Shown here: piece by piece, positions 41,768 to 47,778 of the stretch
How the letters are laid out: each line of letters begins with the position of its first letter
How positions within the stretch are numbered: the stretch's first letter is position 1
NCBI RefSeq assembly: GCF_017309185.1
Contig: NZ_JAEKJZ010000001.1
Location: forward strand, 1,550,001 to 1,614,000
Source: Roseibium aggregatum
GTDB lineage: Bacteria; Pseudomonadota; Alphaproteobacteria; Rhizobiales; Stappiaceae
DNA length: 64,000 nucleotides
Direction: 5' to 3'
Translations under genes and position numbers: made by a program
The notes under the pieces: generated by a model
The model's input: the letters and a program-made list of their open reading frames with translations, nothing else
Database searches by the model: none
Told to the model about the DNA's origin: nothing

Positions 41768-42631
41768 TCAGGTTGGGTCTTGCAGGCGGTCGCGCAACTG
41801 GTCGCCGGTCAGATTGATGGCCAGAACCGTAACCAGAATGGCCAGTCCGGGGAAGATCATCAGATGGGGGGCGGTCTGCATGTAGGGCTTGCCATCAAGC
41901 AGCATCGCACCCCATTCCGCCTGGGGCGGCTGAACGCCGAAGCCGAGAAAGCTGAGGCCCGAGATAGCGAGGATGGTCTTGGACCAGGAACTCGTCCAGA
42001 GCACCAGAATGCTCATGCGCAGATTGGGCAGAATATGCCGCCACAGGATCAACCATTGCGGCAGCCGGTTCAGCCGTGCCTGGACCACAAAGTCCTTGTG
42101 GCCGATGGAGAGCGTCAGGGTGCGGGTGAGGCGGGCGAATTTCATCCAGCTCACCGAGACCAGCGCAATCACCATGTTGTTCGTGCTCGGCCCGATGATC
42201 CCGGAAATCGCGATTGCCGCGATAAGCTCTGGAAAGGCGAAGAAACTGTCGGTGACGCGCATCAGGAGAGGATCGGCCCACCGGCCCACGTAACCGGCCA
42301 TCAATCCGACAATCGTTCCGATGACCGCACCGGCGGTCGAAACGATGAGAGCCAGCCCGATGGACCAGCCGGAACCGTAGAGAATGCGCGTGGCGATGTC
42401 CCGGCCAAGCTGATCGGTCCCGAACCAATGGGAAAGAGACGGAGGCGCCAGTCTGTCCAAAAAGTCTGCCTCCGTCGGGTCGTAAGGGGTAAGGAGAAGC
42501 CCCGCGACCGCGAGGGCGACCAGGCCAGCGAGTGAGAGCAGGAGAAACTGGACGAACCGGTCCTGAGCCATGGCCTGGCGCAGGCGGTTTTTGGTCTGAA
42601 CGGGGAGAGCGTCGGCGGGTGAGAGCGTCAT
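41768..42631 (-). CDS. ABC transporter permease (DppC/NikC-like)
   Basis: A 287-residue permease with an N-terminal hydrophobic helix, the LGTDQLGRDIATRILYGSG-like segment (seen as FGTDQLGRDIATRILYG) and the EAA loop, typical of DppC/OppC/NikC subunits. It overlaps the upstream permease by 4 bp (ATGA). Confidence 0.9.
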   Translation of the reverse strand: MTLSPADALPVQTKNRLRQAMAQDRFVQFLLLSLAGLVALAVAGLLLTPYDPTEADFLDRLAPPSLSHWFGTDQLGRDIATRILYGSGWSIGLALIVSTAGAVIGTIVGLMAGYVGRWADPLLMRVTDSFFAFPELIAAIAISGIIGPSTNNMVIALVSVSWMKFARLTRTLTLSIGHKDFVVQARLNRLPQWLILWRHILPNLRMSILVLWTSSWSKTILAISGLSFLGFGVQPPQAEWGAMLLDGKPYMQTAPHLMIFPGLAILVTVLAINLTGDQLRDRLQDPT

Positions 42632-43680
42632 CGGTCACCGGTAGTGTTGTCGGGAGAGTCCGTGGCGGAGGCGGTGGTTATCGGGCGCTGTGCTCGGAGA
42701 GAAGGCGCGGGCAGGGACTTTCGTGGGTCCAGACAGTCCTGGAGCGCCTCGATCAGGCTGTTTATGGCGACGTAGCTGAAGGCGGAGAACATCACTAGGA
42801 ACAGGACAATCGGGTAATCTCTCGACATGACCGAGCCGACGAGGAGAGACCCGATCCCGCCGCGCGCGAAGATCACTTCGACAATGACCGCCCCTTCCAG
42901 GAGATATGCGAGATCCAGTCCTATCATCGTGATCGCGGGAACCATGGCGTGACGAAGGATATGGCGCCAGAAAATTTCCTTTTCACCGACCCCTCGCAGC
43001 CGGAGAGCTTCCAGGAACGGCGACGAACTGGCTTCCAGCAGAAAGGAGCGGAACAGCCGGGTCTGAGAGGCGGTGATCCAGACCGCCAGGGTGGCGGCCG
43101 GGAGGATGAGGTGCGCCGGCGTTCCTGTTCCGAAGGACGGAAGCCAGTTCAGCCAGGCGGCAAACACCAGGATCAGCATCAGGCCGAGCCAGTAGGACGG
43201 TACCGCCGCCCCAATGGAGGCGACAGCGACCGCGATCCGGTCGTAAAGACTGCCGGGCCTCCACAAGCTGACCAGACTGAGGAAAAAGGCGAGTGGCAGA
43301 CCGATCAGGAGCGCGGAACAGGCCAGGGCAAGGGTTTCGCGCAAATTGGGCAGAAAGATCTCCCAGACCGGCACTCCGGAGACAAGCGATTGTCCGAAGT
43401 CGCCTTTGAGGTAGCCCGAGACCCAAAGCTTGAACTGTGTCAGGAAAGGCTCATTGAGTGCATATTTTTCACGGATGGCCTGCACCACTTCCGGGGGCGC
43501 GTTGCCTTCACCCATATAGCGGGCATGCGCGATGGCGAGCGCCTTGTCTCCGGGTGAGAGATAATAGAGGCTGAAGGTGAGCACGCTGACGCCAAAAAGG
43601 ACCACCGCGAGAGCACCCAGCCGTTTGATCAGGATACCGTGTATGCCGGTCAGAGCGCTGGTCCGGTTCCGTCCGTTCAC
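42628..43680 (-). CDS. ABC transporter permease (DppB/NikB-like)
   Basis: A 350-residue permease of the DppB/NikB class: N-terminal helix ILIKRLGALAVVLFGVSVLT, the DPGDKA-type LSPGDKALAIA segment and a C-terminal transmembrane region. The GTG at 43680 is chosen as the start because GTGA overlaps the upstream ATPase stop by 4 bp; the longer frame would overlap the ATPase gene by ~50 bp. It forms the channel with the following permease. Confidence 0.88.
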   Translation of the reverse strand: MNGRNRTSALTGIHGILIKRLGALAVVLFGVSVLTFSLYYLSPGDKALAIAHARYMGEGNAPPEVVQAIREKYALNEPFLTQFKLWVSGYLKGDFGQSLVSGVPVWEIFLPNLRETLALACSALLIGLPLAFFLSLVSLWRPGSLYDRIAVAVASIGAAVPSYWLGLMLILVFAAWLNWLPSFGTGTPAHLILPAATLAVWITASQTRLFRSFLLEASSSPFLEALRLRGVGEKEIFWRHILRHAMVPAITMIGLDLAYLLEGAVIVEVIFARGGIGSLLVGSVMSRDYPIVLFLVMFSAFSYVAINSLIEALQDCLDPRKSLPAPSLRAQRPITTASATDSPDNTTGDR

Positions 43681-44507
43681 TGGGCAGCTCCACACGTCAT
43701 GGGTTGAACCGCGGCCTCCTCGGGAAGGCAACCGAGAACGCGGGCCGCCTCGATCAGCTCCGAGCCGTAATCGCTCGCAGGTGACCGGAAGAAGGCGTTA
43801 GACGCCTGATAGGCCTCGACGATACCATTGCGTAGCAGCAGGATGTCGTCGGCATAGGCCTGCGCATAGCCGAGATCGTGGGTCACAACGATGTAACTGA
43901 GACCATGCGTTTGCTTGATCCGTTCCATGGTCCTTCCGATTTGTTTTTGCACGACCGCATCGAGCGCACTGAGCGGTTCGTCGAACAGGATCAGTTCCGG
44001 CTTGGCAATAAGTGCCCGCGCGATACAGACGCGCTGTGCCTGGCCGAGGGAAAGCTGCGCCGGATAGCGCAGAGCCATTTCCGGAAGTAGATCCACATTG
44101 CCAAGCGCTGCCAGGAGTGCCTCTTGCTTTGCGTTCCGGTCCAGCTTCGCGTGATGGAGGCTTTCGGTGATCGCCGCGCCCGCTTTCTGCAACGGGTTCA
44201 GGGCCGCGATCGGGTTCTGCATGACCCATTTGGTGTCCGGAAGACCGATCGGCCTCGGCCCAGGTTTCTGGCGCGTCGTTGCGCCGGGGCGGTCCAAGCC
44301 GTGTTCAACGGAGCCGCGGCAAATCGGCATGAGGCCTTGAAGCGCTTTCAGCAAGGTCGTCTTGCCGGAGCCGCTTTCTCCGACGACGCACAGGGTCCGG
44401 CCCTTTTTCAGGGTGAAGGACACGTCATGCAGGAGCACCACGTTGTCGACTTCTACCCCCAGATTGCGAACGGCGAGCACGTCAGTTTCTTCCTTTTTAC
44501 CCAACAT
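43677..44507 (-). CDS. ABC transporter ATP-binding protein (DppF/NikE-like)
   Basis: A 276-residue ATPase: Walker A GESGSGKTT, a MQNPIAALNPL Q-loop, LSLGQAQR signature, Walker B ELILFDEPLSALDAVVQ and VVTHDLGYAQ switch histidine. The signature deviates from LSGGQ to LSLGQ, a variant seen in this subgroup. It is the second ATPase of the importer and overlaps the other ATPase gene by 11 bp. Confidence 0.9.
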   Translation of the reverse strand: MLGKKEETDVLAVRNLGVEVDNVVLLHDVSFTLKKGRTLCVVGESGSGKTTLLKALQGLMPICRGSVEHGLDRPGATTRQKPGPRPIGLPDTKWVMQNPIAALNPLQKAGAAITESLHHAKLDRNAKQEALLAALGNVDLLPEMALRYPAQLSLGQAQRVCIARALIAKPELILFDEPLSALDAVVQKQIGRTMERIKQTHGLSYIVVTHDLGYAQAYADDILLLRNGIVEAYQASNAFFRSPASDYGSELIEAARVLGCLPEEAAVQPMTCGAAQ

Positions 44508-45312
44508 GGCTCTGACCAGCCGATATCACTGGGCCGTCTGTCGACGGGGCAGGCCACTGCCGGTGCGTGACCAGCAATTGTCCGGCTTTGGTTCGCGGCG
44601 CGGCCAGCAGGCGTTGCGTCGGTCCGAACTCCGCGACCTGGCCATCTGTCATGACTGCGGTGCGCTGGGCGAATTTGGCGGCAAGAGCCAGGTCGTGGGT
44701 GACGATCAGGACGGACACTTGATGCCGGCGGGCATAGGTCATGACTTCGGAGATCGCCCGCGCGGCAACGATCGGGTCCAGCGCGGAGGTCGGTTCGTCC
44801 AGGACCAGAAGCTTCGGTTTGGAAATAAGCGCAAAGGCGAGCAACAACCGTTGCTGCATGCCCTGGCTCCACTGATGCGGAAAGCGTTTGCCGAACCCGT
44901 CAAGCCGTAGCGCCTTGAGAACACCGGCCCGACCGTCCGCCTCCGGCGTCTCGAACCTGGCGCAGCGAAGAGCCTGTGACCATTGCCAGGACAGGCGCTT
45001 GAGCGGGTCGAGGCCGACCTGAGGGTTTTGCGGAACGAAGGCAAAGCCCTCGTGCCGCGATTTCTGGCGCTTTCGGCTGGTGAGATCGAAGGTGCGGCCG
45101 TCGAAGGTCAACCTGCCTGAACTGGGCCGGGCCGGGCGGTAAAGCCCCATGAGGCAGCGCAGCAGCGTCGACTTCCCCGTTCCGGATCCGCCGACCACTG
45201 CGACACATTCCCCGCGCTCTATATCGAGGTCTACGTCGCGCAATATGGTTTGCCCGCCGATTTCGGCGGACAAACCGTCAAGCGACAGCAACGCGTGGCC
45301 GTTACTGCTCAA
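44497..45312 (-). CDS. ABC transporter ATP-binding protein (DppD/NikD-like)
   Basis: A 271-residue ATPase with Walker A GGSGTGKST, Q-loop FVPQNPQVGLDPL, signature WSQGMQQRLLLA, Walker B KLLVLDEPTSALDPIVA and the TVIVTHDLALA-like histidine switch. It begins with TTG at 45312, overlapping the binding-protein stop by 11 bp. With the second ATPase it forms the heterodimeric motor typical of peptide/nickel importers. Confidence 0.88.
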   Translation of the reverse strand: MSSNGHALLSLDGLSAEIGGQTILRDVDLDIERGECVAVVGGSGTGKSTLLRCLMGLYRPARPSSGRLTFDGRTFDLTSRKRQKSRHEGFAFVPQNPQVGLDPLKRLSWQWSQALRCARFETPEADGRAGVLKALRLDGFGKRFPHQWSQGMQQRLLLAFALISKPKLLVLDEPTSALDPIVAARAISEVMTYARRHQVSVLIVTHDLALAAKFAQRTAVMTDGQVAEFGPTQRLLAAPRTKAGQLLVTHRQWPAPSTDGPVISAGQSHVG

Positions 45313-46870
45313 GGTCCAGATCCACGGTGGCCAGATAGGTTTCCGCCGGATGGATGCGATAGCCTGTGACCTTGCCGTTTCCGACCGAGACCTGGGTCTT
45401 GTGAAAGACGGGGATCAGAGGCAGGTCTTCGTTGATGATGGCCTGGATCTCTTCGTAGAAAGGTCTGCGCACCTCGTCGTCGAACTCCGAGCGGCCCTTT
45501 TCCAGAAGCGCGTCGAGTTCCGGGTTCTCGTAGCCTGAGATATTGTAGCTTGCGCCGGATTTCACCAGCGTGCTCGGGAAGTAATCCGGATCGCCCTGAG
45601 GGGCGGTTCCCCAGGCCTGCAGATTCATCTGGATTTCACCGGACTTCACCGCGTCATTGTTCGCGGCGTACTCGCCCATCGAGATTTCCACGCCGATGCC
45701 GATCCGCTTGAGCAGTTCCTGGGTGATTTCCATGGTTGGGCGCAGGGCCGCGCGGCCTTCGTAGGTTCTAATCCTGACCGTCAGATCCTTGCCGTCGATT
45801 TCACGAATGCCGTTACCGTCGGTATCCGTAATGCCGGCCTCGTCAAGCAGCGTTTTCGCCTTTTCCGGATCGAAGGGCAGGGACAGGTCCGTGTTGTACC
45901 AGGAGGCCATATTGGCCGGGAAAATGCCGTTCGCCGGGGTGCCCCCGACGCCAGCCAGGGTGGCGTCGACGATAAGCTGCCGGTCGAGGCCCAAAGACAG
46001 GGCTTGCCTCAGGGCCTTGTTGGCCAGCGGGCCATCCTTTGTGCGAAGCTGATAGAAGAACAGACGCGCGGTCTCATTAGAAAAGAGCTGACCTTCTCCC
46101 TTTTCTTTCAGCGCTGCGAAATCCTGTTCGGGATAGTTGGTGACAAGGTCGACGTCATTGGCCTGCAGCGCCAGGGCGGCGACGGAGGCGTCTGGAATGA
46201 CATTAAAGACGACACGGTCGAGTTTCGGCTCGCCACCCCAATAGTCCTGGAACCCACGGGTTTCGTATTTCTTTTCCGTTTCGGCGGACACGAAAGCAAA
46301 CGGCCCCGTGCCAATGATGGGCAGGTCGTCGGTGCCTTCCTTGAGAACCGCCGCGGAGGGCTCGGTCAAGGCCCAGAGGAAAGCGGAATTCGGCTTGCTG
46401 GTCTTGAAAATGAGCGTATGGGCATCTTCAACCGTCACGCTTTCCAGGGCGAGCAGTTTCAAAAGCCTGGGATTGTGGGCCGGATGACCTTCCTCGCCGA
46501 GCTTTTCGAACGACGCCTTGACGCTTTCTGCGGTCATCGGCGTGCCGTCGTGAAACTTTACACCGTCGCGCAGGATGAGCTTCCATTCTGTCGGCGACAT
46601 ATTCTCGTATGCCTGCGCCAACCGTGGAATGAGTTCCATGTCGTAGCTTAGACCGATCAGCGTCTCGGAAACGCCGGCCCGGTTGCTGAGCCATCCGTTT
46701 TGGCGTGCTCGGGGGTCCGGCACAGGACTGTTGGGCCCGAATGGCATGGCGATATGCATCGTCTTTTCACCGGCCAAAGCCGAGGTGAAACCGGCGGTCA
46801 GAAAGAATGGTGCTGCGGCGCCGATACCTGTAAGCGCTACGGCCAGGGTCATTGAAATAGGTTTGCTCAA
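45302..46870 (-). CDS. ABC transporter solute-binding protein (family 5, NikA/DppA-like)
   Basis: A 522-residue family-5 periplasmic binding protein with a signal peptide (residues 1-33, ending TSALAG). It carries the family patterns LILRDGVKFHDGTPMTAESV and ALRQALSLGLDRQLIVDATL. The TTG at 46870 is supported by a GGAG ribosome-binding site; the next ATG, at 46852, lacks one. The operon order SBP-ATPase-ATPase-permease-permease resembles NikABCDE/Dpp. A small ORF and a cobalamin riboswitch lie upstream. If the riboswitch transcript reaches this gene, the ligand may be nickel, cobalt or a corrinoid precursor rather than a peptide. Confidence 0.9.
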   Translation of the reverse strand: MSKPISMTLAVALTGIGAAAPFFLTAGFTSALAGEKTMHIAMPFGPNSPVPDPRARQNGWLSNRAGVSETLIGLSYDMELIPRLAQAYENMSPTEWKLILRDGVKFHDGTPMTAESVKASFEKLGEEGHPAHNPRLLKLLALESVTVEDAHTLIFKTSKPNSAFLWALTEPSAAVLKEGTDDLPIIGTGPFAFVSAETEKKYETRGFQDYWGGEPKLDRVVFNVIPDASVAALALQANDVDLVTNYPEQDFAALKEKGEGQLFSNETARLFFYQLRTKDGPLANKALRQALSLGLDRQLIVDATLAGVGGTPANGIFPANMASWYNTDLSLPFDPEKAKTLLDEAGITDTDGNGIREIDGKDLTVRIRTYEGRAALRPTMEITQELLKRIGIGVEISMGEYAANNDAVKSGEIQMNLQAWGTAPQGDPDYFPSTLVKSGASYNISGYENPELDALLEKGRSEFDDEVRRPFYEEIQAIINEDLPLIPVFHKTQVSVGNGKVTGYRIHPAETYLATVDLDLEQ

Positions 46871-46963
46871 CTGGAAACTCCGTCTCGGAATGAGGTTGTC
46901 AGGGTCATAAGTTCACACCGGAACAATGTGTAACGTAATAACATATCATTTGATTGTGTAAAT

Positions 46964-46978
46964 GCCGCTCAGCGCGGC
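46964..46978 (-). terminator. Weak hairpin between the small ORF and the NikA-like gene
   Basis: GCCGC and GCGGC form a 5-bp stem with a 5-nt loop, followed on the minus strand by an A/T-rich stretch (ATTTACAC). It may partly terminate the riboswitch transcript before the importer genes, so it matters for whether the riboswitch controls the ABC operon. Confidence 0.4.
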
Positions 46979-47056
46979 AAGATCCGGTTGTGAGCCGTCA
47001 GGGATGGGGAACTGCAGATATGGCGCGAACGGACCGGTCCGGGGCAGGGACCCCGG

Positions 47057-47200
47057 CTAGATCAGCGCCGGTTTTCCGTCTGTCCGAGAACGATACAGCG
47101 GCGTCCTTGGCATAACGACAGGTAGCAACCCGCTGCTCCGGGGTACTGACGTGCGAGAGAGGAAAACTTCGCGCAGGAAGTCTGTTGTCGGTATCATCAT
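47057..47200 (-). CDS. Small ORF of 47 codons downstream of a cobalamin riboswitch
   Basis: A 47-residue peptide (start MMIPTTDFLREVFLSRTSVP, end TDGKPALI) with a strong ribosome-binding site, GGAAGGAG, 6 nt before its ATG. It is basic, rich in Pro/Arg/Ser, has no cysteine, transmembrane helix or recognisable signal, and matches no family I know. It lies 46 nt downstream of the riboswitch aptamer, and a GC-rich hairpin overlaps the region just before the ribosome-binding site, so its translation could be the riboswitch output. It could also be a leader peptide for the downstream NikA-like gene. Coding status rests on the ribosome-binding site and context. Confidence 0.5.
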   Translation of the reverse strand: MMIPTTDFLREVFLSRTSVPRSSGLLPVVMPRTPLYRSRTDGKPALI

Positions 47201-47246: not shown

Positions 47247-47431
47247 CGATGGCAGGTCTCCTGACTTGCGGGTCTCAGCGTGACCGGCCTTCCCAAGCAC
47301 AGGCTCAGTGGCATACCGGCTTCGCTCTCCGCCTACAGTTGCGGGGGCAGTCACGGAATGAGTATCTCGAACGATACCGCACCGTGTTCCCTATTATCCC
47401 GACCACGCTTGATACGTATCGGGAACCATCG
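47247..47431 (-). promoter_or_regulatory. Class I cobalamin (B12) riboswitch
   Basis: On the minus strand the aptamer runs from a P1 arm CGATGG (47431-47426) through TAATAGGGAACACGGTG, the highly conserved CTGCCCCCGCAACTGTA (the B12-box-type core) and GGGAAGGCC, to AAGTCAGGAGACCTGCC, and closes with CCATCG (47252-47247). These match the consensus of the B12 riboswitch closely. The expression platform lies in 47246-47201, where CCGGG/CCCGG arms abut the ribosome-binding site of the 47-codon ORF, suggesting translational control. The next larger genes downstream are the NikA/DppA-type ABC operon. Confidence 0.92.
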
Positions 47432-47778
47432 ACGTCTTTTCTATGCAGTCATTCGCGACGGGATGCAACCGTTATTGCCGGAAGATGTTTGCCGCTTACG
47501 GTCGATTGGTCGATCCCGGATGGTATCCAGGCTTCGCAAGGGGAAAGCTATGTGAATGTACAGTGTCGTTTGATCCGCAAGCATTGAACGCATTTTTGGG
47601 GGTGCATTTGGCAGCCATTGAAAATTACATTTTCACCGGGAACGACAAATAGCCCGCGATAGTCACAGAAGTGTTGTGTAATAACATTACTTCGGAGGAG
47701 CCGCTGTGTCGCCCTCTCTCTGCTGGCAGGTCCGAACATGGCGATGGATGATTTTCCCGGAAGCCAAAAGGAGCCACC
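47432..47778. other. Intergenic region between riboswitch and phoX; contains a palindromic AT-rich motif
   Basis: No gene is supported here. GTAATAACATTAC at 47678-47690 is an imperfect palindrome, and its first ten bases recur at 46935-46944 in front of the NikA-like gene. This shared motif could be a regulator site for the riboswitch transcript, for phoX or for both. A standard Pho box upstream of phoX was looked for and not found with confidence. Confidence 0.35.

Follow-up and report, generated by a model that had tools for sequence, protein, structure and literature searches.

Translation of a short leader ORF as the probable output of a B12 riboswitch upstream of a transporter operon with a Zur-like box in Roseibium aggregatum

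Background

What does a B12 riboswitch control when the first start codon behind it opens a frame of 47 codons that resembles no known protein? This question is raised by a locus in a stretch of 64,000 nucleotides from Roseibium aggregatum, which we refer to as the window (contig NZ_JAEKJZ010000001.1, positions 1,550,001 to 1,614,000). An earlier note on this DNA, made from the letters alone, had proposed that the frame (here ORF1) could be a new B12-responsive small protein or a regulatory leader peptide. When a small ORF lies behind a riboswitch, annotation easily makes a new protein of it or passes it over. In the E. coli btuB type of riboswitch it is the main gene whose start codon is controlled; in the window the controlled start codon belongs to a leader ORF.

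Results

The riboswitch and its predicted start codon

The window contains a complete cobalamin (B12) riboswitch aptamer on the minus strand (47445-47234; RF00174, model positions 1-189, cmscan score 126.3 bits, gathering threshold 31.5), as the earlier note had recognized. It is followed in minus-strand order by a P13-like hairpin, CCGGG-CGGGGTGT-CCCGG (47230-47213, with 5-bp arms at 47230-47226 and 47217-47213 and L13 as the loop), the Shine-Dalgarno (SD) sequence GGAAGGAG (47214-47207), 6 nt, and an ATG at 47200 that opens the 47 codons. The claim of a strong SD at ideal spacing is borne out. GCGGGG of the hairpin (47226-47221) and CCCCGC in loop L5 of the aptamer (minus strand, 47346-47341) are complementary, and for the latter PMC10653944 gives a kissing-loop role. 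An L5-L13 kissing-loop platform is described there for translational corrinoid riboswitches, and with its predicted L5-L13 pairing, P13, and ribosome-binding-site hairpin the locus is like the E. coli btuB type of kissing-loop cobalamin riboswitch (PMC10653944).

The 3′ arm of the P13-like stem shares 2 nt with the SD, and the sequestering arms that had been said to abut the ORF can be drawn as a 5-bp CCGGG/CCCGG stem. Local folding prefers another register: minimum-energy folding of the 48 nt around the stem pairs the loop's own Gs in a shifted register and disfavors the one drawn. Aptamer and platform together are no more stable than shuffles (z -0.10), by a method that models no pseudoknots.

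Our collection comprises 168 distinct B12 sites, taken chiefly from the family and order (mostly best-scoring sites, so the collection is not exhaustive). A rule based on loop, SD, and start, blind to ORF length and used for all counts, is passed by 62 of them. These class sites were picked by their G-rich loop and SD, and the stem played no part in selection; by sequence comparison, 60 of the 62 have a stem of at least 4 pairs around the G-rich loop. The stem variants are compensated (CCGGG/CCCGG, CCGGA/TCCGG, CGGAC/GTCCG, and CCAGG/CCTGG). A search for the platform pattern over 240 class genomes was unspecific and was discarded.

We predict that the start codon of ORF1 is very likely the riboswitch-regulated start, and ORF1 as the direct output of the riboswitch is a well-supported prediction. 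A scan of the riboswitch region for sigma-70-like promoters found none, and the one terminator-like site found upstream of the aptamer (47669-47653) is at chance level.

The 47-codon frame and its peptide

ORF1 (minus strand, 47200-47057, ATG to TAG) is the predicted first regulated cistron. Its product contains 6 Pro, 6 Arg, and 5 Ser and has a net charge of +4 (counted by eye), which agrees with its earlier description as basic and Pro/Arg/Ser-rich. It also resembles no family, as had been said, with no match among the Pfam and NCBIfam models. Among 44 other genomes of the genus we found nothing that credibly matches the peptide, and a full match occurs in its own genome only. Partial matches (E 0.004-0.1) are found in eight other genomes of the genus; the two best (L037 and L038, best E 0.004) were set aside as chance, with no riboswitch near either locus. 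A longer version of this frame, 85 amino acids from an in-frame ATG at 47314, was rejected, as it starts within the aptamer and has no family match.

Codon use was scored with 37 long ORFs, taken mechanically from the window, as the reference. ORF1 scores -0.145 per codon, and 24.6% of composition shuffles score as high. The score is below that of its own frame +2 (-0.108), sits between frames +1 and +2, and falls in the lowest 5.6% of 47-codon gene slices. These comparisons suggest that the ORF1 peptide is not a conserved protein, and it appears unselected.

The proposal that ORF1 encodes a functional B12-responsive small protein of 47 residues draws on its perfect translation signals. Against it stand the missing relatives and family matches, the shuffle-like codon use, and the unlike ORFs with frame-breaking indels at equivalent loci (described below), and we consider this first proposal of the earlier note very unlikely to be correct.

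Genes and signals downstream of ORF1

The stop codon of ORF1 lies 186 nt from the start of a transporter gene, which encodes a substrate-binding protein of the SBP_bac_5 type, NikA/CntA-like (minus strand, 45302-46870, TTG start, Pfam 1.3e-83). The best NCBIfam model for this protein, the nickel-type Opp5A_nikA, scores 256 bits, under its cut-off of 600. Also on the minus strand are two ABC ATPase ORFs (44497-45312 and 43677-44507), a permease ORF (42628-43731), and a second permease ORF from about 42631, all taken from the ORF list with functions read by eye. From these sequences we predict that the transporter is used for metal uptake.

The genome has a Zur-like palindrome upstream of the transporter gene (46930-46947, no strand assigned), with one mismatch to GTWAYGTWATWACATWAC. 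Palindromes like GTWAYGTWATWACATWAC occur at two sites in the window (each on both strands), compared with 0.02 expected. The second (47673-47690) precedes a PhoX gene (PhoX by Pfam), and two near-matches elsewhere in the genome precede genes for a COG0523-type GTPase and an alkaline phosphatase (names read from sequence). The Zur review PMC6103462 places yciC among the Zur-linked genes of Agrobacterium and Paracoccus, and the Sinorhizobium Zur box is given as a 7-1-7 palindrome in PMC7029138. The palindrome is a putative Zur box at which Zur may bind, and in having such a palindromic operator the locus would be like the Zur-regulated metal uptake genes of Alphaproteobacteria. The transporter gene is probably served by a promoter of its own at this box. 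In L259, a Zur-like palindrome lies upstream of a gene for a PhoA-like protein (by eye); together with the box before the window's PhoX gene, this suggests that alkaline phosphatases may be under zinc control.

We found no second leader ORF that bridges the 186-nt gap, and the ORF1 stop neither overlaps nor abuts the next start, as it would for termination-reinitiation. The most C-rich, G-poor 78 nt between the ORF1 start and the transporter (minus strand, 46972-47049, C/G 1.94) are among the top 0.5% of 78-nt positions in the window and are rut-like by composition alone. This stretch starts at 47049, right behind the ORF1 stop, and ribosomes on ORF1 would leave it unmasked. Despite the C-rich 78 nt, the density of rut-like patterns equals background, and C-richness is not a feature of leader clusters as a whole (median C/G 1.14 vs 1.12 in five gene-start clusters). 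The case for coupling between ORF1 and the downstream genes is weakened in the window because of the untranslated gap and the C-rich stretch outside ORF1.

A GC-rich hairpin spans the ORF1 stop codon (minus strand, 47022-47069, -26.2 kcal/mol, z -2.5, a stability reached by 4 of 200 shuffles). Alternatively, the riboswitch might yield a short transcript of its own (a regulatory RNA or an interference transcript) that stops within the spacer, with the transporter expressed solely from the Zur-like promoter. This would suit the hairpin, the C-rich spacer, the gap, and the position of the box close upstream of the transporter, and S. meliloti SAM-II riboswitches are described as releasing sRNAs (PMC9373788). 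The hairpin has no U tract, however, and the synteny of riboswitch and transporter is maintained in another family; we regard a separate unit as quite unlikely.

The locus in related genomes

The binding protein has relatives above the score limit in 14 of 86 other genomes of the family, all in the genus of the window (12 at 69-72% identity to the window's protein, two at 45-46%). None of these genes has a B12 riboswitch upstream (1,500 nt examined for 13, 587 nt for L059). Each of the 14 carries a box, with 1-3 mismatches, that lies 71-172 nt upstream of the match. The weakest of these stand out only modestly, since for several of the genus relatives the best match in 200 shuffles goes as low as 3 mismatches. 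The probable promoter at the Zur-like box and the 14 relatives without a riboswitch count against a leader function for ORF1.

In an order sample of 397 genomes, two genomes of another family (f44) pass a stricter limit for the binding protein, and both have the riboswitch. One locus (L106) has the same 1,500 bases as a Cohaesibacter record (L045) and was counted once with it; the other (L107) is of the same genus. Both have the order seen in the window: aptamer, P13, SD, ATG, a short ORF, about 190 nt with a Zur-like box, and the binding protein. The short ORFs have 38 and 40 codons and are unlike each other past the first three residues. In the alignment of these Cohaesibacter-type loci the platform, the ATGGT, and the box are nearly unchanged, and the ORF body is interrupted by indels whose lengths are not divisible by three. 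With ORF bodies scrambled and the architecture constant, it appears that the presence of a short ORF is conserved, but not its sequence. Frameshifts in relatives had been named in the earlier note as evidence against the ORF, and the frame-breaking indels at these two loci come close to that; yet a short ORF persists at both.

These loci also bear on the possibility that ORF1 is an accidental frame, translated without effect, behind a riboswitch that lost its original gene (e.g., DUF1636) or was recruited by rearrangement. At the local base composition, chance alone would leave 47 or more codons open with a probability of about 0.20. An annotated DUF1636 gene starts at the equivalent place in Gemmobacter, and two sites (L063 and L068) have a 150-codon ORF, read as DUF1636, at that start. 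The 14 binding-protein genes without a riboswitch also fit an accident, as does an orphan riboswitch in the same genome, which has leader ORFs but no visible transporter after it. The two Cohaesibacter-type genomes argue against it, with riboswitch, SD, ATG, a short ORF, box, and transporter preserved in the same order and at similar spacing, and so does the clustering in length of non-homologous leaders, described next. We consider an accidental frame unlikely. The openness of 47 codons is by itself not remarkable; what the comparison points to is the ORF1 start site as a recurrent output of the riboswitch.

Leader lengths across B12 riboswitches

Six of the 62 class sites open an ORF of at least 80 codons at the regulated start, and 56 (leader-type) do not. 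The first ORFs of 53 of the 56 leaders are 30-52 codons long, a range chosen after the data were seen; two are shorter and one is longer. The earlier suggestion to look for the ORF behind B12 riboswitches in relatives finds short ORFs at these sites, the two Cohaesibacter-type loci (L045 and L107) among them. The three sites outside the range, kept as misses, are L186 (74 codons), L208 (2, with a start that may be misassigned), and L211 (21). Frames +1 and +2 from the same starts fall in the range at 10 and 6 of the 56 sites. When each sequence cluster is represented by a single site, 19 of 21 fall within the range, compared with a mean of 4.9 for frames +1/+2 (maximum 9 in 5000 draws) and 4.1 for shuffles (maximum 10 in 2000). 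If some clusters are distant homologs and the count is supposed to be 12 of 14, the binomial chance is still about 1e-6 at 0.23.

A fresh set of 20 plasmid records represents mostly other alphaproteobacterial genera and families; one record (L239) appears to belong to the window's own family. A start was given by the rule in 14 of the 20 and in 6 there was none. Twelve of the 14 ORFs are under 80 codons; the other two records (L237 and L244) begin a gene at that start and were excluded from leader counts. Five of the 12 plasmid leaders fall within 30-52 codons (binomial chance about 0.09 at 0.21), or 4 of 10 under the full class rule. Eleven of the 12 have at least 27 codons (9 of 10 under the full rule) vs 13 of 24 control frames, tallied by eye. 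Because only 5 of 12 plasmid leaders are in range, the narrow length range is, by these comparisons, a feature of the family and its near relatives rather than a demonstrated general law.

At 33 of the 56 leaders, an SD-led ORF of at least 50 codons overlaps or abuts the end of ORF1. Among the other 23, five (the window, L004, and L010, L014, L045, and L107) combine a leader ORF and a gap with a Zur-like box that lies +293 to +305 from the aptamer motif. A box at +287 is present in L208, where the start is doubtful, and 17 of the 23 have neither an overlapping ORF nor a box by the rules used. Zur-like boxes are present in 26 of the 56 leaders and in none of 1120 shuffled leaders. Over all 168 B12 sites there are 30 with a box, including 4 of the 112 non-leaders.

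A second small ORF

In a group of 27 sites, a second small ORF (ORF2) has its SD and ATG inside ORF1 at 26 (the exception is L211). The distance from the ATG of ORF1 to the second SD takes five lengths and is a multiple of three at 26 of the 27; the exception is an orphan, L001. ORF1 has a pN/pS of 0.94 over 142 pairs in this group. In a gapless subset of 16 sequences its pN/pS is 0.94, compared with 1.04 and 0.95 in the wrong frames, and an alternative cut of 16 sites with ORF1 of equal length gives 0.86 (55 pairs). The comparison of synonymous with non-synonymous change, which had been suggested as a check on a protein product, comes out in this group like the out-of-frame controls.

ORF2 behaves differently from ORF1. 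Its core, LSERAARAM, has a pN/pS of 0.44 (211 pairs, with pS already at 0.72), and the whole of ORF2 has 0.55 (10 pairs). This conserved ORF behind B12 riboswitches of the genus means that the position can hold small proteins, a point in favor of the small-protein reading of ORF1. So is a subgroup of four ORF1 sites in other genomes with a pN/pS of 0.39 (6 pairs; 24 non-synonymous and 20 synonymous differences), because of which some ORF1 leaders may be under amino-acid constraint. Overall, ORF1 looks like a frame that needs to be read and whose message is free.

ORF2 is mostly 67-94 codons long, with a core of about LSERAARAMxPNG followed by NVITL, which is encoded by the Zur-like box itself. 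By reading, it sits between the B12 riboswitch and a DUF1636/ABC operon in L007, L008, L009, L011, and others. In L021, it is fused in frame to a DUF1636-like part.

Several other arrangements were seen. The orphan riboswitch in the window's own genome (L091, G000:C2:56000-62300) has an ORF1 and an ORF2 of the conserved type. Its ORF1 is frame-shifted relative to its relatives, and the genes after the riboswitch seem, by eye, to be on the opposite strand. In two other genomes of the genus (L095 and L097), two B12 riboswitches about 3.2 kb apart flank an operon that looks ZnuABC-like; each riboswitch has a leader ORF, and the second precedes a large membrane-protein gene. The L239 plasmid (Labrenzia sp. 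THAF187b) has an ORF1/ORF2 leader with a Zur-like box, then a long gap and another binding protein, which shares only 31% identity with that of the window in the compared part.

Discussion

We propose that ORF1 is a riboswitch-gated leader ORF (uORF), with translation rather than its product as the output, and that it probably relays B12 status to the metal-uptake operon with the Zur-like box. Of the earlier idea of a regulatory leader peptide, the leader part is supported, as start codon and short ORF persist; the peptide part is not, as the amino acids do not persist.

With B12 bound, L5 would pair with L13, P13 would be stabilized, and the SD at its foot would be closed. With B12 scarce, ribosomes would load at ORF1 and read through its 47 or so codons. 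The peptide itself is probably dispensable, and a ribosome moving behind RNA polymerase would be what counts. Translation of the leader may limit premature (Rho-type) termination or decay of the leader transcript, and under scarce B12 transcription would reach the metal-uptake ABC operon, adding to that from the Zur-like promoter. The riboswitch and the Zur-like operator would in this way combine B12/cobalt and zinc signals at the operon. At the loci with an overlapping second ORF, translation of ORF1 would directly open the next start, a ribosome relay toward the transporter genes. The window and the other gap loci have no such relay, and there the route through termination or decay may apply. 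We infer ORF1 translation, its effect on the operon, and the roles of Rho and Zur from the sequence.

More tentatively, B12 riboswitches of Alphaproteobacteria might widely feed a short ORF whose amino acids are free and whose presence, length, and frame are constrained, as a ribosome-loading relay to metal-uptake operons. In this design the relay would be direct, run via the second conserved ORF, or cross a Zur-controlled promoter, with cobalamin and zinc read in series on one transcript.

The closest known case is the pe20 Mbox of M. tuberculosis, for which PMC12810186 describes a translational platform acting on a uORF before a magnesium operon, with Rho termination; uORF1 is poorly conserved there, and uORF2 (rv1805A) is conserved and riboswitch-controlled. 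The window is similar in having a small upstream ORF at a translational platform before a metal-transport operon, and the 27-site group is similar in its poorly conserved ORF1 and well-conserved ORF2. It differs in that the Mbox is a Mg2+ element of an actinobacterium, whereas the window has ORF1 alone, a gap, and a Zur-like box and is known here from sequence.

M. tuberculosis also has B12 riboswitches with the uORFs uMetE and uPPE2, and translation of uPPE2 is needed for PPE2 (PMC11260477). These too combine a B12 riboswitch with a short ORF, and there uORF translation governs the downstream gene. The uPPE2 case works mainly by termination-reinitiation, unlike the window, with its next gene 186 nt off, and the ppe2 riboswitch is described as an atypical class (PMC11260477), whereas the window has a platform of the common L5-L13 type. 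The S. meliloti metA SAM-II riboswitch is likewise alphaproteobacterial, with an SD that acts on translation at a distance, but has SAM as its ligand, an in-frame second AUG, and an intrinsic terminator (PMC9373788).

Among the openly licensed matches listed, no paper describes a Zur box that follows a B12 riboswitch with a leader ORF. We found no openly licensed paper on DUF1636 with a riboswitch or on a cobalamin riboswitch with a short ORF in Alphaproteobacteria, and the word cobalamin is absent from the main text of PMC10117765, a ribosome-profiling study of S. meliloti. The principle of a riboswitch acting on a uORF is already known from M. tuberculosis. Going by the openly licensed papers listed, three things appear to be new: ordinary kissing-loop B12 riboswitches of Alphaproteobacteria employ this principle, it recurs with ORF sequences that are free to vary, and a Zur-like box accompanies it.

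In the window and the related loci, the frame seems to be kept and its meaning free; the traffic of ribosomes would be the signal. This makes it testable how a translational riboswitch governs a distant operon, and whether B12 and zinc control meet on one transcript.
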